A DNA stretch of 64,000 nt, taken from NCBI GenBank assembly GCA_026003335.1, contig BPHB01000003.1:193013-257012 (forward strand), written 5' to 3'. This document shows positions 1,262 to 63,815 of the stretch, one piece after another; position 1 is the stretch's first letter, and each line of letters opens with the position of its first letter. The notes under the pieces are model-generated. The model had not been told where the DNA came from, did no database searches, and saw nothing but the letters and a program-made list of their open reading frames with translations. The position numbers and the translations under genes are program-made. Source of the stretch: Chitinophagales bacterium. Lineage in GTDB: Bacteria > Bacteroidota > Bacteroidia > Chitinophagales > CAIOSU01.

Positions 1262-3130
1262 ATGACTGCAAGGACTGATATCCGGCTTTCCCTGCGAATG
1301 AAATATTGCCTCCTTTTTGCAGTGCCGTTTCTGATATATCTGCAGGTGGTCAGCTTTGATTTTTCATTTCATGATGACGACATTATGATCCTTGAGTCGG
1401 CCGACAAGCTGCGCACTTTTGGAATAGATGATTTTTTGTTCACCGATGCATGGATGCGCAAAGCGGAAATTGAGCTGTATCGTCCCCTTCAAAGCATGAC
1501 CTATGCACTGGATTATCGCATAGCGGGTATAAAGCCGGGCATATACCACCTGCATAATCTGGTGGTGTTTTGTTTTTCTGTTCTTTTGATTTTTACTCTT
1601 CTTCTTCGGATAGGCTTTCAGGAAACATTAGCCTTTTGGCTTTCGCTCTTTTATGCCGTGCATCATCTGATGGTGCATGTGGTATGCTGGATACCTGCAC
1701 GCGGAGATGTGTATCTGGTGTTTTGGGGCATGTCCGGTCTGCTAGCTTTTCACCATGGATGGAAGCATGGGAAAATCACCTGGATTATTGTAGCGGTGCT
1801 CTGCTATTTCTTTGCGCTGCTGTCTAAGGAAAGCGCTGTTACTTTACCCTTGTTGATGCTCCTTTGGGGATGGTATGAAGGGCAGTGGAAGCGCAGACAT
1901 CGGGTTATAGTGTTTGCTATTTTGCTGCTGGGATTGGTTACTGCCGCTTATTTTATGCTCAGGCACGATGCTGTTCTTCGGACAGAGTTTGTGGGGTTGT
2001 CTTCTTTAAAGTATAATGCGCCCACCCTGCCTGAAGAAGTTTTTAAGTTTTATATACCGGCTTTTTTCAGCGTGATGCCCGGGTTCAAAACACCTGTAAC
2101 CCTGATAGGTGTGGGAATAATTGGAGGCCTTGCCCTTCTGACCTGGTGGCTACGAAAAAAAATCTACCTCGGGCGCATCATGCTGGGAATAGCTTTCTTT
2201 CTCATTACCCTGTTACCTTCGGTCATGTATAAGCCGGTTTTTGCCGGATATGCCTATGATTATATTGACCACCGCATGTTCATGAATGGTATCGGGCTAT
2301 TGATTTTTACCGGAGAATGGGTTCGTTTTTCCATCGGTGCTTTTGGCCTGAGAGCCTGGACTGCCTTTCTTGCAATGATTATTCTGCAAGCTGCCATGAC
2401 TGTGCATTATGCCGGTGTGTATAAGGATTTTGAAACCTATTATCAGAATGCAGTCACAACCAATCCTCGGTCGGGCTTTGCATTGTACAATTATGCCATT
2501 CTGCTATCCGCACGAAAGCAGCAATATGATGAGGCAATGTATTGGCTGGATAAAGCAGCTGCACTATATCCGCGTGAGTATATGTATCAAAAAGGCAAGG
2601 CGACCGTAGCTTACCAGATGGGAGATTTTGAGAGCATGGCCAGAATCGCGGAAAACATGATATCCTCTTGGCCTCACGTACATTTTGGGTATTTGTTTAT
2701 GGGGATGTATCATCTGCACCACAGTAATTATGAAGATGCTGTCCATTTTCTGTCTCGGGCTATTGAACGCAACCCTAATGATGCAGACGGGTATGCCAAT
2801 AGGGCCAAGGCCTTTCAGGCACTGGGCAATCATGCGGCTGCAATTAAAGACTGGGACAAGGTCATTGAAATGAATCCACACTATGCAGAAGCTTATTATG
2901 AACGTGGTAACCTGTATGGTAATTTGCAGGATTATAAGAAGGCTCTATCCGATTATGACAGGTACGTGAGTCTACGCCCGCAGGACCCAAGAGGATACTT
3001 TTATCGCGGACAGGCTTATTGCCTTATCGGCAAGAAGGATTGGGGCTATCGGGATTTGCAAAAAGCTGCTCTGCTGAATGCAGGCGATGATGCGCAGATT
3101 ATGCGGGTTGCCCGTCAGCTCTGCCGCTAA
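1262..3130 (+). CDS. Polytopic GT-C-type glycosyltransferase with C-terminal TPR repeats (TMTC-like)
   Basis: The N-terminal two thirds carry about ten or more hydrophobic helices. The first loop holds an acidic HDDD motif near residues 37-40, where GT-C transferases (PMT/TMTC type) keep their catalytic Asp pair. Roughly residues 400-610 are tetratricopeptide repeats with the usual A/G-Y-x-x-A and P-pattern ends (DADGYANRAKAFQALGNH, AEAYYERGNLYGNLQDY). This layout matches the eukaryotic TMTC O-mannosyltransferases and their bacterial relatives. The likely role is transfer of a sugar from a polyprenyl-phosphate donor to protein or glycan at the periplasmic face; donor and acceptor cannot be read from the sequence. 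The ATG at 1262 is used; a second Met at residue 13 is an alternative. It converges on the methyltransferase gene. Confidence 0.75.
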   Translation: MTARTDIRLSLRMKYCLLFAVPFLIYLQVVSFDFSFHDDDIMILESADKLRTFGIDDFLFTDAWMRKAEIELYRPLQSMTYALDYRIAGIKPGIYHLHNLVVFCFSVLLIFTLLLRIGFQETLAFWLSLFYAVHHLMVHVVCWIPARGDVYLVFWGMSGLLAFHHGWKHGKITWIIVAVLCYFFALLSKESAVTLPLLMLLWGWYEGQWKRRHRVIVFAILLLGLVTAAYFMLRHDAVLRTEFVGLSSLKYNAPTLPEEVFKFYIPAFFSVMPGFKTPVTLIGVGIIGGLALLTWWLRKKIYLGRIMLGIAFFLITLLPSVMYKPVFAGYAYDYIDHRMFMNGIGLLIFTGEWVRFSIGAFGLRAWTAFLAMIILQAAMTVHYAGVYKDFETYYQNAVTTNPRSGFALYNYAILLSARKQQYDEAMYWLDKAAALYPREYMYQKGKATVAYQMGDFESMARIAENMISSWPHVHFGYLFMGMYHLHHSNYEDAVHFLSRAIERNPNDADGYANRAKAFQALGNHAAAIKDWDKVIEMNPHYAEAYYERGNLYGNLQDYKKALSDYDRYVSLRPQDPRGYFYRGQAYCLIGKKDWGYRDLQKAALLNAGDDAQIMRVARQLCR

Positions 3131-3135
3131 ACATT

Positions 3136-3154
3136 ATAGCATGTGCTATGCTAT
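3136..3154. terminator. Small hairpin between convergent genes
   Basis: Perfect 7-bp arms ATAGCAT / ATGCTAT enclose a 5-nt loop, just after the stop of the glycosyltransferase gene and over the stop codon of the opposing methyltransferase gene. There is no clear T-run, so terminator function is only a guess from position. Confidence 0.3.
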
Positions 3155-3762
3155 CGCAATTTAGCTGAGCCCAGGTAGTTAAAGCATGCCGGTCTCCATC
3201 CGGAAATATAGCCGGCAGTGAGCCGTTCCATATGAAATCCTGACTGTTTTAAGAGGGTAGGGATATCCTTATTCAGATGACAGCCCCCGCTAAGGCGTTT
3301 CCAGACAGGATTAATCAGATGCTGGAGGCGGCTTACATTCCTGTCGGGGGCAAGTCCATGTTCGCAAAATAATAGCCTTCCTCCCGGTTTGAGTATCCTT
3401 CTTATTTCATTTAATGAAGCAAGGTCATTTTTAATAGAACATAAGCTGTAGGTTATTACAACTGTATCCGCACATTGGTCATCCAGCGGAAGGCAATCCG
3501 CATTGGCTTGAATCAGCTCCGGCTTAACCTGAGCAGGCTGCTTTTCTGCCAGACGAAGCATCTCAGCAGAGCTGTCAAGAGCCCAAAGATGACTAACCGC
3601 AGCGGGATTGTAATAGCGGAAGTTTAATCCAGAACCTGCAGCAATTTCCACTACACGTCCTCTTGCCTGAGGGATGAGTTTTTCTCGTTGTTGCATGGCA
3701 GGCTTCAGAGAGCACACAAAATGCACCAACCGGGGTAATACATATTTATCATAGAGCCGCAT
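3151..3762 (-). CDS. Class I SAM-dependent methyltransferase, METTL7/PmtA-like
   Basis: This 203-residue protein has SAM motif I (VVEIAAGSGLN) near residue 36, an acidic end of strand 2 (ALDSS), and the post-motif strand with YSLCSI. The later signature LKPGGRLLFCEHG, followed by a conserved Trp-Lys and Gly-Gly-Cys, is typical of METTL7/TMT1-like and phospholipid N-methyltransferase-like enzymes (Methyltransf_11). The substrate could be a lipid or a small thiol; the sequence does not decide. It lies divergent from the alkylglycerol-monooxygenase-like gene with under 100 bases between, so a shared promoter region is possible. The ATG at 3762 is a natural start. Confidence 0.8.
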   Translation of the reverse strand: MRLYDKYVLPRLVHFVCSLKPAMQQREKLIPQARGRVVEIAAGSGLNFRYYNPAAVSHLWALDSSAEMLRLAEKQPAQVKPELIQANADCLPLDDQCADTVVITYSLCSIKNDLASLNEIRRILKPGGRLLFCEHGLAPDRNVSRLQHLINPVWKRLSGGCHLNKDIPTLLKQSGFHMERLTAGYISGWRPACFNYLGSAKLR

Positions 3763-3850: not shown

Positions 3851-5149
3851 ATGGAAGCTTACGCTCAGGCGTTGAATATTGCCATACCAGTGTTTTTGGT
3901 GCTGATTCTTCTGGAATTTGCCTACAGCCGCATCAAGGGCCTGAAAACATCCAATTCCATGGATACTATATCCAGCCTGAGCTCTGGTATTACAAATGTA
4001 ACCAAAGATGTTCTTGGGCTGAGTATTGCGGTAGTGTCTTACTCATGGCTGGAACAACGCATAGGTATATTTGATATAAAAAGTGGAGTACTGGCATACG
4101 TTCTGGCCTTTATCGGAAAAGACTTTGCCGGCTATTGGATTCATCGTATGGAGCACCGGGTGAATTTTTTCTGGAACCGCCATATTATTCATCATAGCAG
4201 CGAAGAGTTCAACCTGCCTTGTGCGTTACGGCAATCGGTGTCAGAGATATTTTCATTTTCTGCTTTTTTTCTTTTCCCGATGGCCTTGATTGGAGTGCCT
4301 GCTGAGGTTTTTGCGGTGGTAGCACCCATACATCTGTTTTTACAGTTCTGGTATCATACCCGGCATATCGGGCGTTTAGGTTTTCTGGAATACTTTCTTG
4401 TTACGCCTTCTCACCATCGTGTACATCATGCTATTAATCCGGAATATCTGGATAAAAATTTCTCTCAGATCTTTATTATCTGGGATAAGTTATTTGGTAC
4501 TTTCCAGGAGGAAAAAAAGGATATTCCTCCTGTGTATGGAGTAAAACGGCCTGTACGCACATGGAATCCGCTGATTATAAATTTTCAGCATGCCTGGCTG
4601 GTCATCCGGGATGCATGCAGAACGAGAAGCTGGTGGGATAAAGCACGTATCTGGTTTATGCCTACAGGCTGGCGCCCCCCGGATGTGGCTGAAAAATATC
4701 CTGTAGAAACCCTTGAAGACGTATACAGCCTGAAAAAATATGCCCCCAAGGCTTCAAAGTTTTTAATTGCATGGTCATACCTCCAGCTAATCGTAACGTT
4801 GCTACTCAGTTTGTACCTTTTCAACCGTATTGCATACATTCCCTACGAACAGGTTTTATTGTACGGAGGCTTCATCTTTTATTCAGTTTTCTCCTATACC
4901 ACTTTGATGGACAGAAAATCCTATGCATGGGTGCTGGAAGGTATAAGAGCACTATTGGGGATATCCGTTATTGTTGCCACCGGAGATTGGTTTTACCTTT
5001 CTGAGATAATTCCCGCGGGGGATCTGCTCGTGGCGGGCTACTTTGTTCTGTCATGGGCCGTGGTGGGTGCTCTGGTGAAGTGGGATATAAACAGAGAAGA
5101 GCACGGGCACACATCCCATGCTTTAGCCACATCAAGTGTCAATGCATAA
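3851..5149 (+). CDS. Fatty acid hydroxylase superfamily membrane di-iron enzyme, alkylglycerol monooxygenase-like
   Basis: Membrane helices flank three histidine clusters: HRMEH, then HIIHHSSEEFN with ALRQS, and later HTRH followed by PSHHRVHH and an IIWDKLFGTF element. This spacing, particularly the HHSSEEFN...ALRQS and SHHRVHH...WDxxFGTF pattern, fits alkylglycerol monooxygenase (TMEM195/AGMO) better than sterol C5 desaturase. AGMO cleaves ether lipids using a pterin cofactor; pterin dependence here is inference from the family. The last ~110 residues form an extra bundle of hydrophobic helices. The reading frame is open from a TTG at 3800, but the ATG at 3851 (residue 18) is the better start. 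The end overlaps the next small gene. Confidence 0.8.
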   Translation: MEAYAQALNIAIPVFLVLILLEFAYSRIKGLKTSNSMDTISSLSSGITNVTKDVLGLSIAVVSYSWLEQRIGIFDIKSGVLAYVLAFIGKDFAGYWIHRMEHRVNFFWNRHIIHHSSEEFNLPCALRQSVSEIFSFSAFFLFPMALIGVPAEVFAVVAPIHLFLQFWYHTRHIGRLGFLEYFLVTPSHHRVHHAINPEYLDKNFSQIFIIWDKLFGTFQEEKKDIPPVYGVKRPVRTWNPLIINFQHAWLVIRDACRTRSWWDKARIWFMPTGWRPPDVAEKYPVETLEDVYSLKKYAPKASKFLIAWSYLQLIVTLLLSLYLFNRIAYIPYEQVLLYGGFIFYSVFSYTTLMDRKSYAWVLEGIRALLGISVIVATGDWFYLSEIIPAGDLLVAGYFVLSWAVVGALVKWDINREEHGHTSHALATSSVNA

Positions 5150-20235: not shown

Positions 20236-23200
20236 TTATTGCTTACCGATGATGAACCATTGCGTGCCGTCTGAAACAATCTGCAGGAAGTCGTATTGGA
20301 CGTTCAGTGTAGGGGTAAGAACCCCGTCAATGGTTTCCACTCCATCCGGATTAATGGTAATCGCATTTGCCGAGCTGTCAGTTTTCTTGATGGTGTAAAT
20401 CCGGCCGGTAACTGTTGCTGCCGGAGGAAGTTTTACCTGCATTGCTCCATTCGTGGCATCGGCAAGAATGATTATTTCTTCCCCGGCGGTGTAAGGATCG
20501 TCCAGACTGTTAATGGTTTTTACTTTTAGAGCAAATGCTCCGTTCAGAGTGGTTTGGCCGATTAAAGTCAGGCTGGTGTCCAGCTTTTCGGAAGTCACGT
20601 CCCGGTCTCTGATTTTAGCCGTGGTAACGGCATTATTCTGAATCTTGCTTTCAGTTACTGCGTCAGTAGCCAGCTTGGTGTTGGTCACCGCTCCATTGGC
20701 CAGTTTGCTTGAGGTAATATTAAAATCGGCAATTTTGGCTTCGGTTATGGCATTGTCTGCTATCTTGGAGGTAGTTACTGCATTGTTGGCTATGTTCGGG
20801 TTAGGATAAGAGCCTGTCAAATCCCCGCCGGCCTCGGTTCCTGAAAGAATAAATCTGCCCACGGTGAAGGTGCCACCTGCATCCGTGATTTTTAGCGAAT
20901 CATTGGTTATGGTTACATTGGTAAGCAATTCGTTTGACGCATTGTTGTCGCTGAGGGTAACTGAGTTGCCTCCGCTGATGGATAAGGTATTGCCGGTCAA
21001 ACTGATTGTTTGCGGAGCGGCTGCTGCATCAACATAGGCTTTGTTGGCGGCATCTGTGCCTGCTGTGGGTGTTGCAACATTGGTCAGCTTGTTGGAATTC
21101 ATATTAATATCTCCGGTAAAGCTGGAGGTTCCGGTTACTGAAATTCCTCCCGCTGAAACTGTTATTCCTCCATCTGAAACCACCAATCCTTTTCCGATCA
21201 ATACGCTGTCCAGGCGGCTTCTGAAGTTGGGATCCACATAATAGCTGCTGTTATCCCAGTCAATGACTTTGGCTGAAATCCACAGATCGCGGTTGGAGGC
21301 AGCGGTATTGCCCACAAAGAAATCACCGGTAGAATTGACGTTTCCGTTGGTCAATACCATGATGCCTTCGTTATCTCCGTCATTGGAGAGGTAAAAGCCG
21401 TTCATCCGGATGTTCTGTGTAGCAGTGTGGTTGCCCATATTATCTGCATCCAGATAGCTGCTGAGGTCCACGGCATTGCCGCCCGAGATAGCCAGGGTAT
21501 TGCCGGTGAGGCTCAGCGTCTGGGCATCGGTGTTGACGGAGGCGATGTCAATGGTGTTGCCACCGGAGATGCTCAGGTTGGTGCCTGAGAGGGCAAGGGT
21601 TTGCGCATCGGTATTATCCAGATACCCGCTGAGGTCCACGGCATTGCCGCCTGAGATGAGCAGCGAATCGTTGCTTATGGAAAGAATCTGGCTGTCAGTA
21701 TTATCCAGAAAGCTGCTGAGGTCCACGGCATTGCCGCCCGAGATAGCCAGGGTATTGCCGGTGAGGCTCAGCGTCTGGGCATCGGTGTTGACGGAGGCGA
21801 TGTCAATGGTGTTGCCACCGGAGATGCTCAGGTTGGTGCCTGAGAGGGCAAGGGTTTGCGCATCGGTATTATCCAGATACCCGCTGAGGTCCACGGCATT
21901 GCCGCCTGAGATGAGCAGCGAATCGTTGCTTATGGAAAGAATCTGGCTGTCAGTATTATCCAGAAAGCTGCTGAGGTCCACGGTATTGCCGCCCGAGATG
22001 GCCAGGGTATTGCCGGTGAGGCTTAGGGTCTGGGCATCGGTGTTGACGGAGGCGATGTCAATGGTGTTGCCACCGGAGATGCTCAGGTTGGTGCCTGAGA
22101 GGGCAAGGGTTTGCGCATCGGTATTATCCAGATACCCGCTGAGGTCCACGGCATTGCCGCCTGAGATGAGCAGCGAATCGTTGCTTATGGAAAGAATCTG
22201 GCTGTCAGTATTATCCAGAAAGCTGCTGAGGTCCACGGTATTGCCGCCCGAGATGGCCAGGGTATTGCCGGTGAGGCTCAGGGTCTGTGCATCGGTGTTG
22301 ACAGAGGCGATGTCAATGGTGTTGCCACCGGAGATGCTCAGGTTGGTGCCTGAGAGGGCAAGGGTTTGCGCATCGGTATTATCCAGATACCCGCTGAGGT
22401 CCACGGCATTGCCGCCTGAGATGAGCAGCGAATCGTTGCTTATGGAAAGAATCTGGCTGTCAGTATTATCCAGAAAGCTGCTGAGGTCCACGGTATTGCC
22501 GCCCGAGATGGCCAGGGTATTGCCGGTGAGGCTCAGGGTCTGTGCATCGGTGTTGACAGAGGCAATGTCAATGGTGTTGCCACCGGAGATGCTCAGGTTG
22601 GTGCCTGAGAGGGCAAGGGTTTGCGCATCGGTGTTATCCAGAAAGCTGCTGAGGTCAATGGCATTGCCGTTGGAGATATACAAAGAATCATTGCTGATAT
22701 GGAGAGTTTGCAGTTCATTAGTGGAGTCTCCGTCAGCATCTATAAATCCTGATAAGTCCACACTGAGAGTGCCCGCTGCATCTGTAATTTCCAGTACCGT
22801 GCCATTCAGGGTAAATGCTGTATTTATTTCATTGGCCGGATCGTAGTCGGCATCATTCACCAGGGCGCTCAAATCCACAGAGAGAGTACCACCGGCATCT
22901 GTAATGTGCAGTGTTGCACCCGATAAATAGGCACCGGTGTTCAGCTCGTTGGCGGGGTCGTTATCGGAAAGCGTGATAGAGTTGCCCTGAGAAATAGAAA
23001 TGGTATTTCCGGAAATAGAAAGGTTTTGCAGTTCATTGGTCGTGCTATTATCTGAAAGGACGACAAAGTTTGCTTTGCTAAGGAACAGGGTGTCTGTGGA
23101 GATGGATAAAAATTGTATTTCGTTGGTGGTGTCTGCATCTGCATCTTGCTGGAGGCTGCTGAGGTTAACCGTTTTTTGTCCTCCGGCATCGGAAATACTC

Positions 23201-24345
23201 AGGAAGGATCCGTCAAAAGAGAAGCCGGTGTTCAGCTCGTTGGCAGGGTCGTTATCGGAAAGTGTGATAGAGTTGCCCTGAGAAATGGAAATAGTATTTC
23301 CGGAAATAGAAAGGTTTTGTAACTCGTTCACAGGACTATTATCACCCAGGATAATGTAATTGCCCTTACTCAGATAGATGGTATCATGAGAAAGGGTAAG
23401 CATTTGTATTTCGTTCGTAGCATCGGTGTCTCCGTCTTTTCCGGACCCCTGCAGGCTCACGGTCAAAGTGCCTGAACCATCAGTTAGTGTAAGCATATTT
23501 GTAATGGAGTCATAAGTGAGGGAAATGTTTTTCCCCTTGTATACAAGAGGAGAAAAGTCTACCCATCCACCATTCTGGAGGGTAAGTATATTAGTGGAGG
23601 GATTAAAAGACAACTGCTGGTTGTCTGTATTATCCAGATAAGGGGTCAGGTCAACGCTATTGCCGTCAGAGATAGAAAGGATGTTGTTAATAATGGAAAT
23701 GTTTTGATTGTTTACCTCATCGCCAGCGGCAGTCCATTTGGAGCCGTTCCATTTCAGTACCTGTCCGGTAGTGGGGTGTGCATCTACATCACCCAAATCA
23801 TTTAAACTGTTATCAGACAGGTTGTCGGCTTCTTTGTCAATCTGTAGGCTGAAGGTGTTTCCGGCTTCGGTAATAGTTAAGGTATTGGTAGTGCCGTTAA
23901 AATCCACACTGGTAATTAACTCATTTTCATTGCTGGGGTCACTGAGTGCAACATTAGACACTTTGGAAAAAGGTACTGCAAGTAAACGGGAGACTCCCAT
24001 AATAATATAATTGTTGCCACCTTCGGGGTCCATTTCAATTTTCAGCCACTTGTTGCCACTGGCCCAGTCAATGTTTTCATAATCTCCGGTCACTCCGGAG
24101 CCGGAGCCTATCACCAGGCTGAATAGACCATATTCATTCGTGGTTACCTTATGTTTTTCTACATATACTTCCGAGCCTGCGTTGGCGCTGTCAATAACCG
24201 TTATCCTGAAGTTTACGGTTTTGTTGCTGAATAATTCTCCGCTACTGGTTCTGGCTACGCCTTGATATTTTATGCCATCGGAGAATTGTGCATGCACCTG
24301 CAGCATGAGCATGCATACAAAAACAATAGGGGTTAGGGTTTTCAT
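20236..24345 (-). CDS. 1369-residue secreted repeat protein with tail-fibre-like C-terminus
   Basis: A signal peptide (cut near VHAQ) precedes a Bacteroidota N-terminal domain with GIKYQGVARTSSGELFSNKT. The body consists of repeats of 27-29 residues, roughly NTDAQTLSLTGNTLAISGGN-TVDLSSFLD, including five copies of an 85-residue triple unit. The C-terminal third changes to tail-fibre-like sequence: AGGDLTGSYPNPNI, a ten-residue ladder (NNAVTTSKIA, DNAITEAKIA), and a trimer-like cap with GRIYTIKKTDSS. Such beta-helical proteins are usually surface or extracellular adhesins. No type A or B sorting domain is visible, so the export route is unclear. There are no phage genes nearby. A hairpin terminator follows the stop. 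Confidence 0.75.
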   Translation of the reverse strand: MKTLTPIVFVCMLMLQVHAQFSDGIKYQGVARTSSGELFSNKTVNFRITVIDSANAGSEVYVEKHKVTTNEYGLFSLVIGSGSGVTGDYENIDWASGNKWLKIEMDPEGGNNYIIMGVSRLLAVPFSKVSNVALSDPSNENELITSVDFNGTTNTLTITEAGNTFSLQIDKEADNLSDNSLNDLGDVDAHPTTGQVLKWNGSKWTAAGDEVNNQNISIINNILSISDGNSVDLTPYLDNTDNQQLSFNPSTNILTLQNGGWVDFSPLVYKGKNISLTYDSITNMLTLTDGSGTLTVSLQGSGKDGDTDATNEIQMLTLSHDTIYLSKGNYIILGDNSPVNELQNLSISGNTISISQGNSITLSDNDPANELNTGFSFDGSFLSISDAGGQKTVNLSSLQQDADADTTNEIQFLSISTDTLFLSKANFVVLSDNSTTNELQNLSISGNTISISQGNSITLSDNDPANELNTGAYLSGATLHITDAGGTLSVDLSALVNDADYDPANEINTAFTLNGTVLEITDAAGTLSVDLSGFIDADGDSTNELQTLHISNDSLYISNGNAIDLSSFLDNTDAQTLALSGTNLSISGGNTIDIASVNTDAQTLSLTGNTLAISGGNTVDLSSFLDNTDSQILSISNDSLLISGGNAVDLSGYLDNTDAQTLALSGTNLSISGGNTIDIASVNTDAQTLSLTGNTLAISGGNTVDLSSFLDNTDSQILSISNDSLLISGGNAVDLSGYLDNTDAQTLALSGTNLSISGGNTIDIASVNTDAQTLSLTGNTLAISGGNTVDLSSFLDNTDSQILSISNDSLLISGGNAVDLSGYLDNTDAQTLALSGTNLSISGGNTIDIASVNTDAQTLSLTGNTLAISGGNAVDLSSFLDNTDSQILSISNDSLLISGGNAVDLSGYLDNTDAQTLALSGTNLSISGGNTIDIASVNTDAQTLSLTGNTLAISGGNAVDLSSYLDADNMGNHTATQNIRMNGFYLSNDGDNEGIMVLTNGNVNSTGDFFVGNTAASNRDLWISAKVIDWDNSSYYVDPNFRSRLDSVLIGKGLVVSDGGITVSAGGISVTGTSSFTGDINMNSNKLTNVATPTAGTDAANKAYVDAAAAPQTISLTGNTLSISGGNSVTLSDNNASNELLTNVTITNDSLKITDAGGTFTVGRFILSGTEAGGDLTGSYPNPNIANNAVTTSKIADNAITEAKIADFNITSSKLANGAVTNTKLATDAVTESKIQNNAVTTAKIRDRDVTSEKLDTSLTLIGQTTLNGAFALKVKTINSLDDPYTAGEEIIILADATNGAMQVKLPPAATVTGRIYTIKKTDSSANAITINPDGVETIDGVLTPTLNVQYDFLQIVSDGTQWFIIGKQ
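21448..22650. repeat. 255-bp tandem repeat, five copies (last partly diverged)
   Basis: The marker TGTTGACGGA (or TGTTGACAGA) recurs at 21531, 21786, 22041, 22296 and 22551, exactly 255 bases apart, encoding an 85-residue unit of three related strands. The copies are almost identical; a few substitutions are shared by neighbouring copies (for example GACGGA to GACAGA in the last two), which suggests stepwise duplication. Homology fades after about 22650. Confidence 0.95.
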
Positions 24346-38345: not shown

Positions 38346-39944
38346 ATGAAAGCATCACCCTACTTCACTGAAGACCATGAGCTGTTTCGCCAGAGTGTCA
38401 GGCAGTTTGTGCGTGCCGAAGTTCTGCCCCATATAGAAAAATGGGAAGAGGAAGAGCGCATACCTGCTGAGACATGGAAAAAAATGGGCGATTTGGGTTT
38501 TCTGGGCATCAACATGCCTGAGGAATATGGGGGAACGAACAATGACTTTTTTTACTCGGTAGTACTCCTGGAAGAAATAGCTAAAAGCGGCTGTGCCGGG
38601 CTGGCCGCAGCTCATGGGGTACATCAGTTCATGTCAACGGCACATTTGGTAAAAGCCGGCAGCCCGGAACTGAAAAAGAAATATCTGCCCGGTGCTATAA
38701 ACGGATCTCTTTTGGGAGCACTGGCCATATCTGAACCCGGAGCCGGATCGGATGTGGCTTCCATACGCACTACCGCTGTGAAGCAAGGAGATCACTATGT
38801 GCTCAACGGTCAAAAAACTTTCATTACTAATGGCGTTTATAGTGACTTTGTCACGGTGGCCTGTAAAACGCGTCCGGATGCCGGCACTGCCGGTATCAGC
38901 CTTCTGATTGTTGACCGTAATACTGCGGGCTTTACCGCCCGTAAACTGAAAAAAATCGGGTGGCGGAGTTCTGACACCGCTGAATTGTTTTTTGAAAATG
39001 TACACGTGCCGGCAGAAAATCTCATCGGAGAGGAAAATCAGGGCTTTTATTACATTATGGAGAGCTTTCAGCTGGAGCGGCTGGTTGCAGCAATCTCGGC
39101 TGTGGCTGGTGCTGAGCTGGGCGTGGAAACAACGCTCAAGTACATAGGCGAACGGGAAGCATTCGGGAGACCAATTAGCAAATTTCAGGCTATCCGGCAT
39201 CGTCTCGTTGATCTTATCACCGAACTGGAAGCTGCCCGTCAGCTTACTCTGTATACGGCATGGCTTTTTGACCGTGGTGAATTTGCGGTGAAGGAATGCA
39301 CCATGGCAAAGCTGCTGGCTACAGAGCTGGGTAAAAAGGCTGCAGATATCTGCCTGCAGTGCTTCGGTGGCTATGGTTATATGGAAGAATACCCTATAGC
39401 CAGAATGTACCGCGATGCACGGGTGGGAACCATTGTAGGAGGTACTTCGGAAATCATGCGCGAAATTTTATCCAAAATAATCATTGACGACGCGCAATAC
39501 CAGCCGGCTTATGGTACACAAAAGCCAGATGTTCAAAAAACGGACACGTCATCTGAACCGGCTGTCTCTTCGGATAAATCCATTTTTAACTTAAATAAAT
39601 CTGCAACTATGAATGGTAAACCAGAAAAAGCTTCGGATATCATTAAAGGGCTTCCCGCAAGGTTTAAAGCAGACAAGGCAGAAGGCTTTGATGCCGTGTT
39701 CCATTTTGACATTGCCGGGAGCAACGGAGGACAATTTACTGTAACTGTAAAAGACAAAACCTGCACCGTAACCGAAGGCTTTCAGGGAGAGCCTACCTGT
39801 AAGGTGACTACTCAGGACACCGTTTACGAAGACGTGGAACTGGGACGCACCAACGCGCAAATGGCCGTAATGACGGGTAAAATTAAAATCAACAACATCG
39901 GTGCTATGATGCGCTTTGTAGGCCTGTTTGACCGGTTGGCGTAA
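38346..39944 (+). CDS. Acyl-CoA dehydrogenase fused to a C-terminal SCP2 sterol-carrier domain
   Basis: Residues 1-385 form a full FAD acyl-CoA dehydrogenase (LGALAISEPGAGSDVASI, then KTFITNGVYSDFVTV, and CFGGYGYMEEYPIARMYRDA). The MCAD-type catalytic Glu position is Gly (VGGTSEI), while Glu-244 in QLERL matches the base of isovaleryl-CoA and long-chain dehydrogenases. A Ser/Thr/Lys-rich linker (about 390-420) joins a domain at about 421-532 with GLPARFKADKAEGFDAVF and VMTGKIKINN, an SCP2 fold that binds lipids or acyl-CoA. The linker DNA around 39570-39608 looks like spacer sequence and an ATG at 39609 begins the SCP2 part, as if two genes had fused. The next gene has a related SCP2 domain. 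Confidence 0.87.
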   Translation: MKASPYFTEDHELFRQSVRQFVRAEVLPHIEKWEEEERIPAETWKKMGDLGFLGINMPEEYGGTNNDFFYSVVLLEEIAKSGCAGLAAAHGVHQFMSTAHLVKAGSPELKKKYLPGAINGSLLGALAISEPGAGSDVASIRTTAVKQGDHYVLNGQKTFITNGVYSDFVTVACKTRPDAGTAGISLLIVDRNTAGFTARKLKKIGWRSSDTAELFFENVHVPAENLIGEENQGFYYIMESFQLERLVAAISAVAGAELGVETTLKYIGEREAFGRPISKFQAIRHRLVDLITELEAARQLTLYTAWLFDRGEFAVKECTMAKLLATELGKKAADICLQCFGGYGYMEEYPIARMYRDARVGTIVGGTSEIMREILSKIIIDDAQYQPAYGTQKPDVQKTDTSSEPAVSSDKSIFNLNKSATMNGKPEKASDIIKGLPARFKADKAEGFDAVFHFDIAGSNGGQFTVTVKDKTCTVTEGFQGEPTCKVTTQDTVYEDVELGRTNAQMAVMTGKIKINNIGAMMRFVGLFDRLA

Positions 39945-40023
39945 TGGACCTCTCGGGGGTCCGAGGGCCTGTCTTAACTTTCTGTCCGGCATGTAGTTCC
40001 CCACAAAGTAAATTCTTTGCCTT

Positions 40024-41556
40024 TTGAGCCCCGAATTTCCGGAAATTGTTTCTTCCCTGCCTGCGCGTTTTCGTGCGGAGAAAGCAGAAGGAGTTTCCGC
40101 TGTGATACATTTTGACTTAAGCGGAGAAGGGTGGCCGTTTACCGTAATCATTGAAGGAGGCAGATGTACGGTAGAAAAGGGACTTGTCGGCACGGCAACC
40201 TGCATCATCCGGACAGATGCCGACAGCTACGTGCAACTGGAAAAGGGGGAGCTCAACCCTCAGGCTGCTTTGCTAAGCGGGCGGGTGGAGGTAAGCAACC
40301 TGATGGAAGTGATGCGTTTCACGCGCCTTTTTCGCAGATATGAAGAGTCTGACGCACCTGGTACAGCCACCATGCGTCCTGAAAAAGAGGGCCCGCTGAA
40401 AGGATTGAAAATTGTGGATTTTACCCGCTTGTTACCCGGTCCTCTTGCTACCATGCTCATGGCAGACTTGGGCGCTGAAGTAATTAAAATTGAAGATCCA
40501 GATGCCCCGGACTACATACGCAGCTTTCCCCCGTTTATAGGCAATGATTCAGCTTACTACATCAGCTTAAATCGTGGCAAACGCAGTGTAGCTGTCAATT
40601 ACAGCGTGGAGGAAGGGAAGGAAATTGTCAGGCGTTTGATCCGCGAAGCAGATGTGGTGATTGAACAATTTCGGCCGGGCGTGATGGATGCTCTGGGTTT
40701 GGGATATGCTGCATGTGCCCAACAGCATCCTCGTCTGATTTATGTATCGTTGACCGGTTATGGCCAAACAGGACCCTATGCTGCCTGTGCCGGGCACGAC
40801 CTGAATTATATTGGTTACAGCGGATTGCTTGAAACTACGGGTACAAAAGAAGCCCCTGTTATTCCGGGTGGTCAGATTGCCGATGTCGCTGCCGGCTCCT
40901 ATATGACTGTCAATGCGGTACTTGCTGCCTTGTATGCCCGGGAACGCACTGGCAAGGGTCAGCACCTAGATGTGTCCATGCTGGATTGTGTTATACCTAT
41001 GATGGCATTGCAGATTGCCAGCTATTATGGGTCAAGGAAGGAGCCCTCAAGGGGAGATTTCAGCCTCTCAGGGGCAATAGCCAATTACAATGTTTACCGC
41101 TGTGCCGATGGGAGGTTCGTTGCTTTAGGAGCCCTTGAACCGAAGTTTTGGGAAAATTTTTGTGATCTGGTAGGGAAGCCTGAATGGAAAACCCGCATGT
41201 TGAATTCCGGAGCTGATATGCACGCACTGAAGGAGGAAGTAGCCGCCCTGTTTCTATCCAAAACCCGGGATCAATGGATACAGTTGTGTGAGGGTAAAGA
41301 TGTGTGTCTCACACCCGTATTGTCGATTGCAGAATTAGAACAAGATCCACACATCAGGGCAAGGCAGATGCTGGTGCCTGATGAGCGCTATCCGCAGATG
41401 AAGCTCTTAGGCAGGCCGCTTAAATTTTCCGCCTCGGGAGGAAGTGTTTCCTGGAGTGCTCCTGCTCTGGGAGCTGACACAACAGAGGTTTTGAGGGCTG
41501 CCGGCTACACACCCGAACAGATTGCTGCATTCAGAAAGCGGAATATAATCCGCTGA
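40024..41556 (+). CDS. SCP2 domain fused to class III CoA-transferase fold, alpha-methylacyl-CoA racemase-like
   Basis: The N-terminal ~110 residues form an SCP2 domain (SLPARFRAEKAEGVSAVIHF, LLSGRVEVSN) clearly related to the C-terminus of the preceding gene. Residues about 120-510 form a CaiB/BaiF fold (FTRLLPGPLATMLMADLGAE). AGHDLNY with His-258 and IADVAAGSY with Asp-287 match the catalytic His/Asp pair of alpha-methylacyl-CoA racemase rather than the Asp of formyl-CoA transferase. It probably epimerises 2-methyl-branched acyl-CoAs. No ATG precedes the SCP2 part: an in-frame stop lies at 40009 and TTG at 40024 is the first usual start (ATT at 40012 is possible). It lies 79 bases after the dehydrogenase gene, likely the same operon. 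Confidence 0.85.
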   Translation: MSPEFPEIVSSLPARFRAEKAEGVSAVIHFDLSGEGWPFTVIIEGGRCTVEKGLVGTATCIIRTDADSYVQLEKGELNPQAALLSGRVEVSNLMEVMRFTRLFRRYEESDAPGTATMRPEKEGPLKGLKIVDFTRLLPGPLATMLMADLGAEVIKIEDPDAPDYIRSFPPFIGNDSAYYISLNRGKRSVAVNYSVEEGKEIVRRLIREADVVIEQFRPGVMDALGLGYAACAQQHPRLIYVSLTGYGQTGPYAACAGHDLNYIGYSGLLETTGTKEAPVIPGGQIADVAAGSYMTVNAVLAALYARERTGKGQHLDVSMLDCVIPMMALQIASYYGSRKEPSRGDFSLSGAIANYNVYRCADGRFVALGALEPKFWENFCDLVGKPEWKTRMLNSGADMHALKEEVAALFLSKTRDQWIQLCEGKDVCLTPVLSIAELEQDPHIRARQMLVPDERYPQMKLLGRPLKFSASGGSVSWSAPALGADTTEVLRAAGYTPEQIAAFRKRNIIR

Positions 41557-58951: not shown

Positions 58952-59227
58952 GATTTTTTTTATTTAATTAATAAACTTGTTTTTTTGAAATCTCTGATGG
59001 TTAAGATAAGGAGGTAAACCGTAAATTCATTGCAATAGCACGAAAAAAGCTTCAATTTCTTGTTGTATTTCAAGCCGATATAAGGAATCTCCGGGAATAG
59101 ATTCTCTTTTCTCCGAAAAAAGTCAGACTGTATCTGGTATTTGTTCCTCTTGAGCTTAAGGCTGGCCTAATAAACGAGCTGTGTTTTGAGCGAATTTTTT
59201 ATTTTAGTCATTGCCTTTTTAAGTAAC
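58952..59227. other. Intergenic region upstream of the CRISPR-Cas operon
   Basis: This 276-base divergent gap separates the PPC-repeat gene from cas6. It shows no direct repeats of CRISPR size, no tRNA-like fold and no ORF that I can support. The frame of cas6 remains open here to a TTG-type start at 59186, but the ATG at 59228 is preferred. Promoters for both directions must lie here; I could not match a consensus with confidence. Confidence 0.5.
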
Positions 59228-59923
59228 ATGAAGCGTATCAGAACCCTTCTGGTAATCTTTGATGAAGAAATAAGGCCGTTTGAAATTGAAGCTTTCCGCG
59301 GAGCAGTTATCCAAAAGGCTGGCCTTGAAAATACTGTGTTTCATAACCACTATGCCGATGGCCGCTATGTGTATCAGTACCCCCTCATTCAGTATAAAGC
59401 TGCACGCGGTAAACCCGTGTTGTTTTGCGTTGACCAGGGAGTGGACGAAGTACATCATTTTTTTACCAACAAAAACTGGGATGTGCACATTTCCGGCAGA
59501 ACCCTGCATCTGAAAATAAGCCGTCTAGACCTTAAAAGCTGCAATCTGAACGTATGGAACCAGCATTTCAATTACCGCATCAGCCATTGGCTGGCGCTTA
59601 ACCAGGAGAATTATAAAAAATATCTGGGCCTGCACACCGATGACGATAGAAGGCAGATGCTGGCCCGCATACTTACCGGTAATGTCATCTCATTTGCCAA
59701 AAGTGTTAAGTGGGAAGTGGACAAGCCCGTTGAAACGCGCATTACAGAAATGGTACGGCAAAAAACCATGCTGTACAAAAACAACAAGCTTCTGGCATTT
59801 GATGTTATTTTTTCGGCCAATGTATCGCTGCCCGACTGGCTTAGCCTGGGCAAAGGAGCCAGCCATGGGTTTGGCGTAATCAGAAGAATGAAAATGTATA
59901 AAACCGTAGCAACAATATCATGA
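59228..59923 (+). CDS. cas6: CRISPR repeat endoribonuclease Cas6
   Basis: The ~231-residue protein has two ferredoxin-like halves and the C-terminal glycine-rich loop of Cas6 (SLGKGASHGFGVIRRMKMY), which contacts the repeat RNA. It cuts precursor crRNA to give 5'-tagged crRNAs. Several His residues in the N-terminal half (FHNHYADG, VHHFF) are candidates for the general acid/base, but family Cas6 enzymes vary here. The ATG at 59228 (MKRIRTLLVIFDEE) is chosen over the upstream in-frame start. Its end overlaps cas10 by 4 bases (ATGA). It leads the type III operon, which is a common layout. Confidence 0.88.
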   Translation: MKRIRTLLVIFDEEIRPFEIEAFRGAVIQKAGLENTVFHNHYADGRYVYQYPLIQYKAARGKPVLFCVDQGVDEVHHFFTNKNWDVHISGRTLHLKISRLDLKSCNLNVWNQHFNYRISHWLALNQENYKKYLGLHTDDDRRQMLARILTGNVISFAKSVKWEVDKPVETRITEMVRQKTMLYKNNKLLAFDVIFSANVSLPDWLSLGKGASHGFGVIRRMKMYKTVATIS

Positions 59924-62535
59924 AGGTAACCAGAGATCAGATTTATCTTGCCGCTTTGCTGCATGATATTGGTAAGTTCTTTCAGCGGGCTGACAGCGCT
60001 GGTGCAGCCAGATCAGCTTTACTAAAAAAAGAGATCAAAAATCTGGAAAGCCGGCTCTGCCCGCAGCGCAATAATGTTTATTCCCATAAGCATGTACTCT
60101 GGACGGCACAGTTTCTGGATAATTATGCTTCCTATTTTAAAAAAATGCTGAACCTGAACGAATCAGCATTTGATGAACTGCTTTTGCTCGCGGCTGCACA
60201 CCATAAACCCTCTAGCTTTTCGGAACTAATCATTCAAAAAGCAGATCATTACTCATCCGGGGCCGACCGTGTGAATGAAGAAGCGGCATGGAAAGATGCT
60301 GAGCAGGAAAATGACAACAAATGGGATGCCTTTAAGCGCATCCCGATGAAATCCATATTTGAAGGAGTTAAACTGGACGAAGGGACTGCTATAACCTACC
60401 ATCACAATCTACCCGTTAAGGCAATAGAATTTTCTGAGAACTATTTTCCTTCCAAAAACAATGTGGAAACTGGTTATGGCGCATTGTGGGAAAGATTTAA
60501 TCAGGAATTTCAACAACTCAATACCCAATCATTTCGTGCATTTACAGGGTCTTTATTGTTTTTACTTGAAAAATTTGCAACGCGGATACCTTCCAGTACC
60601 GAACACTTGCCCGATGTATCGCTTTACGACCACCTGAAGACTACAGCAGCTTTTGCTGTTTGCCTGTACGACTACATACAAGATGAAATTAAAGAAGAAA
60701 AACTACCCGGAAAGTCTGACAAACCGTTTGTATTAATCGGGGGCGATTTAAGCGGTATCCAACAATATATCTATGGTATTGCCATGCGTAATGCCGCTAA
60801 AAATCTTAAGGGACGTTCGTTTTATCTGCACTTGCTCTGCGATAATATTGTGTGCTACATTTTAGATAAGCTTTCGCTATTTGATGCCAATGTTATTTAT
60901 TCCAGCGGTGGAGGGTTTTATATCCTTGCCCCCCATACTAAACAAATAACAGAGACCATAAAAAAACTGCATGAGGAGATAAGCGAAAAAATACTAAACA
61001 GGCATCACAACGATTTATTCCTCTCTTTGCATTATGAACCCTTCGGGGAGGCTGAGCTATTCAGCGAATATAAAGAAAACCACATCGGGCAAATCTGGAC
61101 AAAACTGGCCGAGAGCCTCAATAAAATAAAATTACAACGCAATAAGCACCTTTTAAAAAGACAATACGAAAAGTTTTTTGTGCCGTTTAATGTGGGTGGT
61201 GAAAAAAAAACCGATGCTTTTGACGGCCAGGAGTTAGACGATAACGACCGAAAACAACTGGACGGAGGAGATAATTATGTAAGCGCTTATAATTATGCAT
61301 TGATTCAATTAGGTAAAAGACTGAAGTCTGCCGGCTACTGGATAATCTCAAACCAGGAGTTGCCTTATTTAGGCAATATGCATTTCCGGCCCGTAAACCT
61401 GCCTTATTATAACTATTTTCTCAATGCTAAGGAAATTGAAGAACAACGTACGCAACTTGCCGCATCGGCCGATGATGTGCGGGTTTATGCCTTTGACCCT
61501 GCAAACTACCTGAATAATCCTGTTAAGGGAAACCGGAATATATACGGATTTCAGTTTTATGGTGGAAACGATTACCCCAAAAATTTATGGCTTATTCCTA
61601 AAACCTTTGAGGAACTGGCCGGTGTGGAATTTGAAGATAAAAGACTGGAAAAAAGAAAAAAGGCACCACAACTGGTACGCCTGGGCTTTTTACGGATGGA
61701 CGTAGACAATTTAGGTCAAATCTTCCGCACAGGTATCTCAGAAAAAAAGCGCTCCTTCAGCCGCTATTGCACCCTAAGCAGGAGTTTAGATTACTTCTTT
61801 AAGGGTTATGTGAATAGAATTTGGGAAAGCCATGAGGAATATAAAAATTTTACTCAAATTATTTATGCAGGGGGTGATGACCTGTTCATTGTGGGCAAGT
61901 GGGATATTCTGCTCAACATGGCTTATGATATTTACCAGTGGTTCCGGAAGTGGACCTGTTACTCCAATGCCTTTACCCTAAGCGGAGGAATGGCAATTCT
62001 TCCACCTAAATTTCCTTTGTTAAAGGCAGCCGCTATTGCAGAAAAACTGGAAAAAGCTGCTAAAAGCCACCGTTTCAATCAACAAAGTAAAAATGCCTTT
62101 GCATTTTTCAATTTTACTGAATACCACCAGGGCAACCATGAAGAAATTATCTTCAGCTTTAACTGGGAAAAGGAATTTCCGTACATCTACAATCTTAAAA
62201 ATGAGTTAAAAAAACATCTCAGTGCCCAAAACGCCTTGCCCGCAGGGTTTGTAACAACCGTTTATACACTTATGCAAATGGCCAGGTTTCGCTACCAGGC
62301 TGCAAAAGACATATATGAGCCCACGCAGCGCCAGTTTATCTGGATTACGGCCTACCAGTTTAAGCGTAGCGCTGCCGGATTCAAACCGAATGATCCCGTG
62401 CATACATTTTTAATGCAATGGGTACAACATATTGCTACCGGACGGGTGGAAAACGGACAACTGCCCACCCGATACCATGCCCTGCAACTATTGGCCGTGG
62501 CCGCACGCTGGGCAGCTTATGAATTAAGGAAATAA
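59920..62535 (+). CDS. cas10: Type III-A CRISPR effector large subunit Cas10/Csm1
   Basis: At 871 residues it has an HD nuclease domain (His-15/Asp-16 in LLHDIGKFFQRAD), a first palm region (VLIGGDLSGIQQYIYGI near 270), a middle region where a zinc ribbon is usual, and the cyclase palm with GGDD at residues 651-654 (QIIYAGGDDLFIVGKW), followed by the helical D4 domain. It should cut ssDNA and make cyclic oligoadenylates upon target RNA binding. The zinc-ribbon cysteines are missing: the segment reads VPFNVGGEKKTDAF where CxxCG motifs normally lie. Both catalytic sites look intact. No CARF-domain effector is in the window. Confidence 0.93.
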   Translation: MKVTRDQIYLAALLHDIGKFFQRADSAGAARSALLKKEIKNLESRLCPQRNNVYSHKHVLWTAQFLDNYASYFKKMLNLNESAFDELLLLAAAHHKPSSFSELIIQKADHYSSGADRVNEEAAWKDAEQENDNKWDAFKRIPMKSIFEGVKLDEGTAITYHHNLPVKAIEFSENYFPSKNNVETGYGALWERFNQEFQQLNTQSFRAFTGSLLFLLEKFATRIPSSTEHLPDVSLYDHLKTTAAFAVCLYDYIQDEIKEEKLPGKSDKPFVLIGGDLSGIQQYIYGIAMRNAAKNLKGRSFYLHLLCDNIVCYILDKLSLFDANVIYSSGGGFYILAPHTKQITETIKKLHEEISEKILNRHHNDLFLSLHYEPFGEAELFSEYKENHIGQIWTKLAESLNKIKLQRNKHLLKRQYEKFFVPFNVGGEKKTDAFDGQELDDNDRKQLDGGDNYVSAYNYALIQLGKRLKSAGYWIISNQELPYLGNMHFRPVNLPYYNYFLNAKEIEEQRTQLAASADDVRVYAFDPANYLNNPVKGNRNIYGFQFYGGNDYPKNLWLIPKTFEELAGVEFEDKRLEKRKKAPQLVRLGFLRMDVDNLGQIFRTGISEKKRSFSRYCTLSRSLDYFFKGYVNRIWESHEEYKNFTQIIYAGGDDLFIVGKWDILLNMAYDIYQWFRKWTCYSNAFTLSGGMAILPPKFPLLKAAAIAEKLEKAAKSHRFNQQSKNAFAFFNFTEYHQGNHEEIIFSFNWEKEFPYIYNLKNELKKHLSAQNALPAGFVTTVYTLMQMARFRYQAAKDIYEPTQRQFIWITAYQFKRSAAGFKPNDPVHTFLMQWVQHIATGRVENGQLPTRYHALQLLAVAARWAAYELRK

Positions 62536-62561
62536 ATTGTTAACCAATTAAACCCCTCATT

Positions 62562-63047
62562 ATGGCAAACGGACATCAACCACGCAAACCTCATCAAAGG
62601 TACGAAAGGAATGATTCCCAACATGCTCAGGTAAAAGAAATAATCGATTTAAATAAAGATAATATCAAAAAATGGACTCAAAACGGCATCAATGATGAAG
62701 CTATTAAGTTTGCAGACCAGTTTGGAGATTCTTTAAAAAAAGGCGGACTTACTACTTCACAAATACGAAATTTCTTCGGTGAGCTCAGGCGTATCCAGAT
62801 GAACGGATACATTACCCCGGATGGCCGCTCAGAAAAAACGGCTTTTCTTATGGTAAAGCCCAAGTTGGCCTATGCTGTAAAAAGACACGACAATAAAGGC
62901 TTAAAGGACTTTTATGATTTTTTCTCAATAGCGTACGATGCTGTAAATAAGAATGACGACAAGGAAGGCGCCAAACATTTTGAGCACCTGATGACACTCA
63001 TGGAGGCTATACTGGCTTATCACAAGTACCACGGTGGAAAAGATTAA
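62562..63047 (+). CDS. csm2: Type III-A CRISPR small subunit Csm2
   Basis: The 161-residue, highly charged alpha-helical protein fits Csm2, which forms the inner filament of the Csm complex along the crRNA-target duplex. The family-like segment is TTSQIRNFFGELRRIQ with a later FLMVKPKLAYAVKRHD, and the protein ends in a long helix (EHLMTLMEAILAYHKYH). The first ~25 residues are basic and likely disordered. It starts 26 bases after cas10 and ends 24 bases before csm3, which with the order cas10-csm2-csm3-csm4 identifies subtype III-A. Confidence 0.9.
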   Translation: MANGHQPRKPHQRYERNDSQHAQVKEIIDLNKDNIKKWTQNGINDEAIKFADQFGDSLKKGGLTTSQIRNFFGELRRIQMNGYITPDGRSEKTAFLMVKPKLAYAVKRHDNKGLKDFYDFFSIAYDAVNKNDDKEGAKHFEHLMTLMEAILAYHKYHGGKD

Positions 63048-63071
63048 ATGACAATATAAAAACCTTTTACC

Positions 63072-63815
63072 ATGGCAAACAGGCTTATTGAAAAAATTGA
63101 AATATCCGGCAGTATTATCCTGAAAACCGGATTGCACATTGGCGGCACCAACAGCAGCATGAGCATTGGCGGCATTGACAAGTCGGTGATTCGCAACCCC
63201 ATCAACAACCAGCCCTACATTCCAGGAAGCTCGCTAAAGGGTAAAATGCGCTCGCTTTTTGAAATCGCTATCGGGGAAATTAAATATGACCAGAATGCAA
63301 AAATAGTAAAAAATGCCCCTGCCGACAGTGGCCCCTCGGCAGATTTATTTGGCAACCCTTCAGGCGACAATCAGAAACCCTCCCGCCTTATTGTGCGCGA
63401 TGGCTATCTGATTAACCATGAGGAAATATTGCAGAAAACGGATATGCCCTACACCGAAGGGAAAACCGAAGTGGTTATTGATCGTATCACCTCAGCCGCA
63501 AATCCCCGTCAAATGGAACGGGTGCCTGCCGGAGCAAAGTTTTCGCTTAACCTCATTCTGAATATATGGGAAAATGACGGCAACCGCGAGGAGCTTATTA
63601 AAAATCTGTTTGAGTCCTTGATGCTCTTGAAAGACGATTACCTGGGGGGTAACGGTTCGCGTGGTTATGGACAGATAGGTTTTATGATTAAAAAAATGGT
63701 GTCGCGAAAAACAGAAGGCTACTACAATGTGCCCGATGGTAAAGAGGAAGACATCCTCAGCCAATATCAGGATTACATTAAACGTATTAATGAACCGGAA
63801 GCTGCATCGGTATGA
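63072..63815 (+). CDS. csm3: Type III-A RAMP protein Csm3 (target RNA nuclease subunit)
   Basis: This Cas7-family protein begins with TGLHIGGT, followed by SIGGIDKSVIRNP, where Asp-36 is the expected catalytic residue for target RNA cleavage at 6-nt intervals (Asp-33 in Streptococcus thermophilus Csm3). PYIPGSSLKGKMRSLFE and the C-terminal glycine-rich loop (GGNGSRGYGQIGF) are typical. The length of 247 residues is slightly longer than usual. Several copies make the backbone of the effector. The stop overlaps the csm4 start by 4 bases (ATGA). Confidence 0.95.
   Translation: MANRLIEKIEISGSIILKTGLHIGGTNSSMSIGGIDKSVIRNPINNQPYIPGSSLKGKMRSLFEIAIGEIKYDQNAKIVKNAPADSGPSADLFGNPSGDNQKPSRLIVRDGYLINHEEILQKTDMPYTEGKTEVVIDRITSAANPRQMERVPAGAKFSLNLILNIWENDGNREELIKNLFESLMLLKDDYLGGNGSRGYGQIGFMIKKMVSRKTEGYYNVPDGKEEDILSQYQDYIKRINEPEAASV

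Follow-up and report, generated by a model that had tools for sequence, protein, structure and literature searches.

Organization of the two-gene locus

The window, a 64,000-nucleotide stretch of contig BPHB01000003.1 from a Chitinophagales bacterium, contains two neighboring genes that each join a lipid enzyme to an SCP2 domain, at opposite ends of the two proteins. The genes and their parts are:

38346..39944, + strand: ACAD–SCP2 fusion, LCAD-like, 532 aa (Pfam; PDB relatives 2pg0 and human LCAD 8w0t)
38346..39500, + strand: dehydrogenase core, about aa 1–385 (alignment)
39666..39932, + strand: SCP2 domain of the dehydrogenase, aa 441–529 (PF02036, 40.5 bits)
40024..41556, + strand: SCP2–AMACR-like fusion (CaiB/CoA transferase III family), 510 aa (Pfam; start TTG, or ATT at 40012)
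40075..40332, + strand: SCP2 domain of the racemase-like protein, aa 18–103 (PF02036, 43.0 bits)
40396..41481, + strand: AMACR-like catalytic part, aa 125–486 (PF02515; fold match to MCR 1x74 and SUGCT 9br6)

Both SCP2 domains score above the PF02036 cut-off of 21.3 bits, in agreement with the preliminary description of an ACAD that ends in SCP2 beside an AMACR-like racemase that begins with one. The two domains also align as described: over 100 residues they are 43% identical (E = 5e-31 in a single comparison), and the peptides cited for them match the sequence. No further SCP2 domain was detected in the whole 3.9 Mb genome. The N-terminal part of the racemase ORF lacks an ATG, and its in-frame candidate starts are TTG at 40024, the first, or ATT at 40012.

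A stable G+C-rich hairpin (GGACCTCTCGGGGGTCC) lies directly 3' of the dehydrogenase stop (39945-40011). Elsewhere in the window, ORFs at 59186-63815 resemble by eye a CRISPR type III cluster (Cas6-, Cas10-, Csm2-, and Csm3-like), and a large protein encoded at 20236-24345 on the minus strand contains numerous near-identical internal repeats (VDLSSFLDNTDAQTLALSGTNLSISGGN).

An LCAD-like dehydrogenase and an AMACR-like partner

The N, M, and C domains of the dehydrogenase (Acyl-CoA_dh_N, _M, and _1) all score above the Pfam cut-off, and its nearest PDB relatives are 2pg0 and human LCAD. Glu244 (39075-39077) occupies, by alignment, the place of the catalytic Glu on helix G, where QLERL stands opposite PQERL of LCAD, and is invariant in 14 relatives; from knowledge of the family, we take it to be the catalytic base. 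At the position of MCAD Glu376, the protein has a Gly (GGTSEIM), as expected of the LCAD/IVD type. LCAD-type dehydrogenases take branched chains. The window dehydrogenase shares the core fold family and catalytic Glu position with LCAD (8w0t; 2pg0) and differs by an additional C-terminal linker and SCP2 domain. This SCP2 tail is of low confidence in the AlphaFold model because the input alignment held almost no SCP2 rows.

The second enzyme matches CoA_transf_3 (PF02515) over aa 125-486 with 383.8 bits. Its residues His258 (40795-40797), Asp287 (40882-40884), and Glu372 (41137-41139) align with His126, Asp156, and Glu241 of Mycobacterium tuberculosis MCR (1x74, 9i2z; fold similarity TMt 0.93), and all three are invariant across ten relatives. 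The corresponding MCR residues have been studied, as the mutants H126A, D156A, and E241A have PDB entries. Judged from these aligned residues, the active site is AMACR-like, which agrees with the first reading of the enzyme, and the protein is predicted from its family to be a 2-methylacyl-CoA epimerase that differs from MCR by its N-terminal SCP2 domain.

By score and by fold, the enzyme is about equidistant from AMACR and human SUGCT, and it might instead be a class III CoA-transferase of the succinyl/glutarate type. SUGCT is its best PDB match by profile, sequence, and fold, and in many bacteria unfused CaiB relatives adjoin ACADs. We nevertheless regard a transferase as unlikely: the His and Glu of AMACR (His258 and Glu372) are invariant here and substituted in SUGCT. 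Among the NCBIfam equivalogs of class III CoA-transferase subfamilies, the best score is 236 bits, against a cut-off of 750.

An ATG with a translation-start-like leader at the linker/SCP2 boundary

The dehydrogenase core and its SCP2 domain are joined by a linker that ends at an in-frame ATG:

39501..39608, + strand: linker, of which the last 30 nt (39579-39608) form an AT-rich leader
39609..39611, + strand: in-frame ATG inside the gene (Met422), where linker meets SCP2; proposed second start
39609..39944, + strand: proposed free SCP2 product, 111 aa, predicted from sequence

About half of the ACAD–SCP2 proteins (47/99) have an ATG at this boundary, and Met is otherwise very rare in the linkers (4 of 1468 residues). 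The boundary Met lies either where free SCP2 genes natively start or about five residues ahead of that point. The window leader contains one G in 30 nt and has A at -3, -12, and -14; with 45% A in -20..-1, it is among the weaker ones by A content.

A leader profile was built from the 44 boundary sites with at least 40% A. G accounts for 0–2% in -20..-10, and A reaches 84% at -14, 75% at -12, and 86% at -3. The starts of free SCP2 genes resemble this leader, and 1262 other in-frame Met codons differ from it (MWU p 6e-26). RNA structure near the boundary ATG is weak (-2.2 versus -9.0 kcal/mol). In Flavobacterium johnsoniae, A at -3, -6, -12, and -13 tunes initiation, and Bacteroidetes initiate without a Shine-Dalgarno sequence (PMC6847099). 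By composition, the A-rich and nearly G-free boundary leader matches this Bacteroidota translation-start signature. As A content was the criterion for picking these sites, cleaner evidence comes from the absence of G, a positional synonymous control, and gene content.

For the synonymous control, the peptide was kept fixed and synonymous codons were redrawn. In 44/44 genes, the 7 codons that precede the ATG contain more adenine than synonymous choice predicts (p 1e-13), and the family means point in the same direction in all six families. The excess is small at codons -21..-15 and absent at -14..-8 and -60..-31. ACAD–SCP2 linkers without a Met lack the leader signature and exceed the expectation only slightly in adenine (0.39 vs 0.37, p 0.01). 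These comparisons show that the boundary ATG is conserved and that the leader before it resembles a translation start and is under selection at the DNA level.

The promoter motif TAnnTTTG does not occur within 120 nt upstream in any of the 44 genes (23 of 818 control windows contain it), a weak test that covers exact matches; the route to the proposed second product appears translational rather than transcriptional. A fusion of a thioredoxin-reductase-like protein to SCP2 (L005, 463-1761, genome G034) likewise has a Met at the boundary, preceded by an A-rich leader (45% A). The leader signature was not found in SCP2–racemase linkers, and an internal start before the racemase core was rejected as a candidate, these linkers having few Met residues and no A-rich leader.

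The boundary ATG and a separate SCP2 gene are complementary

Across the 72 genomes of the order with an ACAD–SCP2 gene, those with a boundary ATG have a free SCP2 gene in 11 cases and lack one in 30, versus 29 with and 2 without among those that have no boundary ATG (p 8e-9). Fresh data from 16 genomes of other orders gave the same pattern (ATG, 0 with a free gene and 10 without; no ATG, 4 with and 2 without; p 0.008). Both p-values treat related genomes as independent, and the kinship of the genomes therefore lessens the weight of the gene-content pattern. On the ACAD tree, six well-supported independent contrasts are available, of which a mean of 3.8 agree and 0 oppose (median sign-test p 0.125, not significant). 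Neither a boundary ATG nor a free SCP2 gene is present in G339, G344, G034, and G112, the last two being the exceptions within the order; the boundary Met in G034 lies in its thioredoxin-reductase–SCP2 fusion, and the G112 genome is 85% complete.

Could the boundary be a fossil of a stop-codon loss that joined an ACAD gene to the SCP2 gene behind it, so that the old start and its A-rich leader now serve as mere linker? The position of the Met at or near the native SCP2 start would fit such an origin. So would genome G103, whose free SCP2 gene shares 72% identity with the SCP2 part of the dehydrogenase in G178. This G103 gene lies directly upstream of a racemase without SCP2, at a locus where no ACAD was found, an arrangement that shows SCP2 to be modular. 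However, the fusion is of old date, with proteins 53-67% identical to that of the window, and their linkers are otherwise little alike, adenine is enriched beyond the synonymous expectation, and loss of the ATG accompanies a separate free gene, in other orders too. A relic of fusion is thus quite unlikely, and a start site still in use would account better for the boundary.

SCP2 domains travel with their own enzyme types

In 61 genomes of the order, the SCP2–ACAD fusion occurs in many families. Within the order, families f1, f9, and f13 contain SCP2–racemase fusions, and five genomes from other orders have them as well. Among the matches of a wider contig scan, which was swamped by ordinary CaiB relatives, the fusion was seen only in the uncultured Bacteroidetes bin L112. 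Fused and unfused versions are mixed within a single clade of racemase cores. In the SCP2 tree, the racemase domains stand apart from the ACAD domains and free SCP2s with 91/95 support, from a short alignment of 114 columns. The two window domains are of one subfamily but branch separately, each among the SCP2s of its own enzyme type, so the pair reflects an old paralogy in which each copy moved with its enzyme. The two domains thus do not group together as the preliminary description anticipated, and a local SCP2 duplication between the two genes was rejected on the trees. The racemase SCP2 domains of the window and of G001 are long-branched, and in the window no ATG is available as the start of the ORF; this suggests faster evolution or decay of the racemase SCP2 in part of family f1.

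Among about 30 racemase loci, the fused dehydrogenase and racemase genes are immediately adjacent only in G000, G001, and G178 and lie within about 3 kb of each other in G109, G121, and G141, which led us to reject a conserved operon as the rule. Adjacency is well above chance, yet confined to a minority of loci. Because unfused ACAD and CaiB neighbors are common across bacteria, adjacency alone is little informative.

These distributions bear on the idea that the SCP2 domains are docking modules that unite dehydrogenase and racemase and hand over acyl-CoA. ACAD–SCP2 is present wherever an SCP2–racemase is (32/32 sampled genomes, and 5/5 in other orders), the adjacency recurs in the three genomes above, and in G020 the ACAD–SCP2 gene adjoins an unfused racemase. 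Many genomes, however, have ACAD–SCP2 without an SCP2–racemase, the ACAD and racemase SCP2 types separate in the tree, and SCP2 is fused as well to wax-ester synthase, alkylsulfatase-type metallo-hydrolases, and a thioredoxin-reductase-like protein. Docking is accordingly a very improbable role. What survives of the two-enzyme module proposed earlier is the constant presence of ACAD–SCP2 in genomes that have an SCP2–racemase, without a local duplication or a fixed gene pair.

Several unusual arrangements were seen among the ACAD–SCP2 genes. Locus L053 (G013, 3-2708) has one ORF of ~900 aa, open at the locus edge, with two ACAD cores followed by SCP2, and G138 has an open frame of 903 aa with SCP2 at its end. 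In family f20, two different ACAD–SCP2 genes stand in tandem (L059 and L060, from G050 and G025), as if encoding a heteromeric dehydrogenase; these genes lack a strong boundary start, and the genomes contain a free SCP2 gene. In L232 (G121; 2789-3232 and 4303-4584), the dehydrogenase SCP2 tail is out of frame with its core through a frameshift or an assembly error, about 1 kb before the SCP2–racemase, and the boundary ATG is intact.

A proposed dual-product gene

We consider it likely that the first gene of the window encodes both ACAD–SCP2 and a free SCP2, with the racemase-like protein as a 2-methylacyl-CoA epimerase partner. Initiation at 38346 would produce an LCAD-like acyl-CoA dehydrogenase with a lipid-binding SCP2 domain on a flexible tail, and initiation at the internal ATG (39609) would yield a free carrier consisting of just the SCP2 domain. 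When tethered, the domain may present long or branched acyl-CoA to the dehydrogenase active site, while the free form would shuttle the same kind of lipid. Dehydrogenases require the 2S epimer, which AMACR provides. The AMACR-like enzyme of the window carries a separate, older SCP2 at its N terminus and would turn 2R-methylacyl-CoA into the 2S form accepted by dehydrogenases. We infer actual internal initiation from the boundary and its leader, and the lipid ligands, the substrates, and the cooperation with the racemase are predicted from the protein families.

It is hardly credible that the leader is a by-product of a disordered linker rich in Asn, Gln, Lys, and Thr: amino-acid choice alone predicts as much as 52% A, but 62% is observed, limited to the 7 codons before the ATG, and Met-less linkers have 40% A and 22% G at the same position.

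Nearly as likely as the dual product of the window gene is its generalization, that Bacteroidota ACAD–SCP2 genes are a widespread gene-within-gene in which an internal translation start would provide free SCP2, that lineages switch between this start and a separate SCP2 gene, and that the arrangement is convergent to animal SCPx/SCP2. If so, a single codon change would remove the free SCP2 only, and a class of start sites within fused genes has been overlooked by gene finders.

Comparison with known SCP2 systems

A literature search found no AMACR–SCP2 or ACAD–SCP2 counterpart, and we know of none. In animals, an enzyme-tethered and a free SCP2 come from one gene, and the need for both is still debated. 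The animal SCPx/SCP2 gene gives rise to a 58 kDa thiolase–SCP2 and a 15 kDa pro-SCP2 (PMC4762939). The system proposed here has in common with it a β-oxidation enzyme with a C-terminal SCP2 and a putative free SCP2, both from one gene. The two differ in the enzyme part (ACAD here, thiolase in animals) and in the route to free SCP2, with apparent internal translation initiation here versus a second promoter in animals. The SCP2 subfamilies are only distant relatives, and the best PDB SCP2 match to the subfamily described here has an E-value of 0.003. MFE-2 (HSD17B4) and other SCP2-tailed enzymes likewise combine a β-oxidation enzyme with SCP2, the enzyme itself being different. If the proposal is correct, an independent bacterial lineage obtains both SCP2 forms, free and tethered, with a different β-oxidation enzyme, which suggests that the pair is functional.
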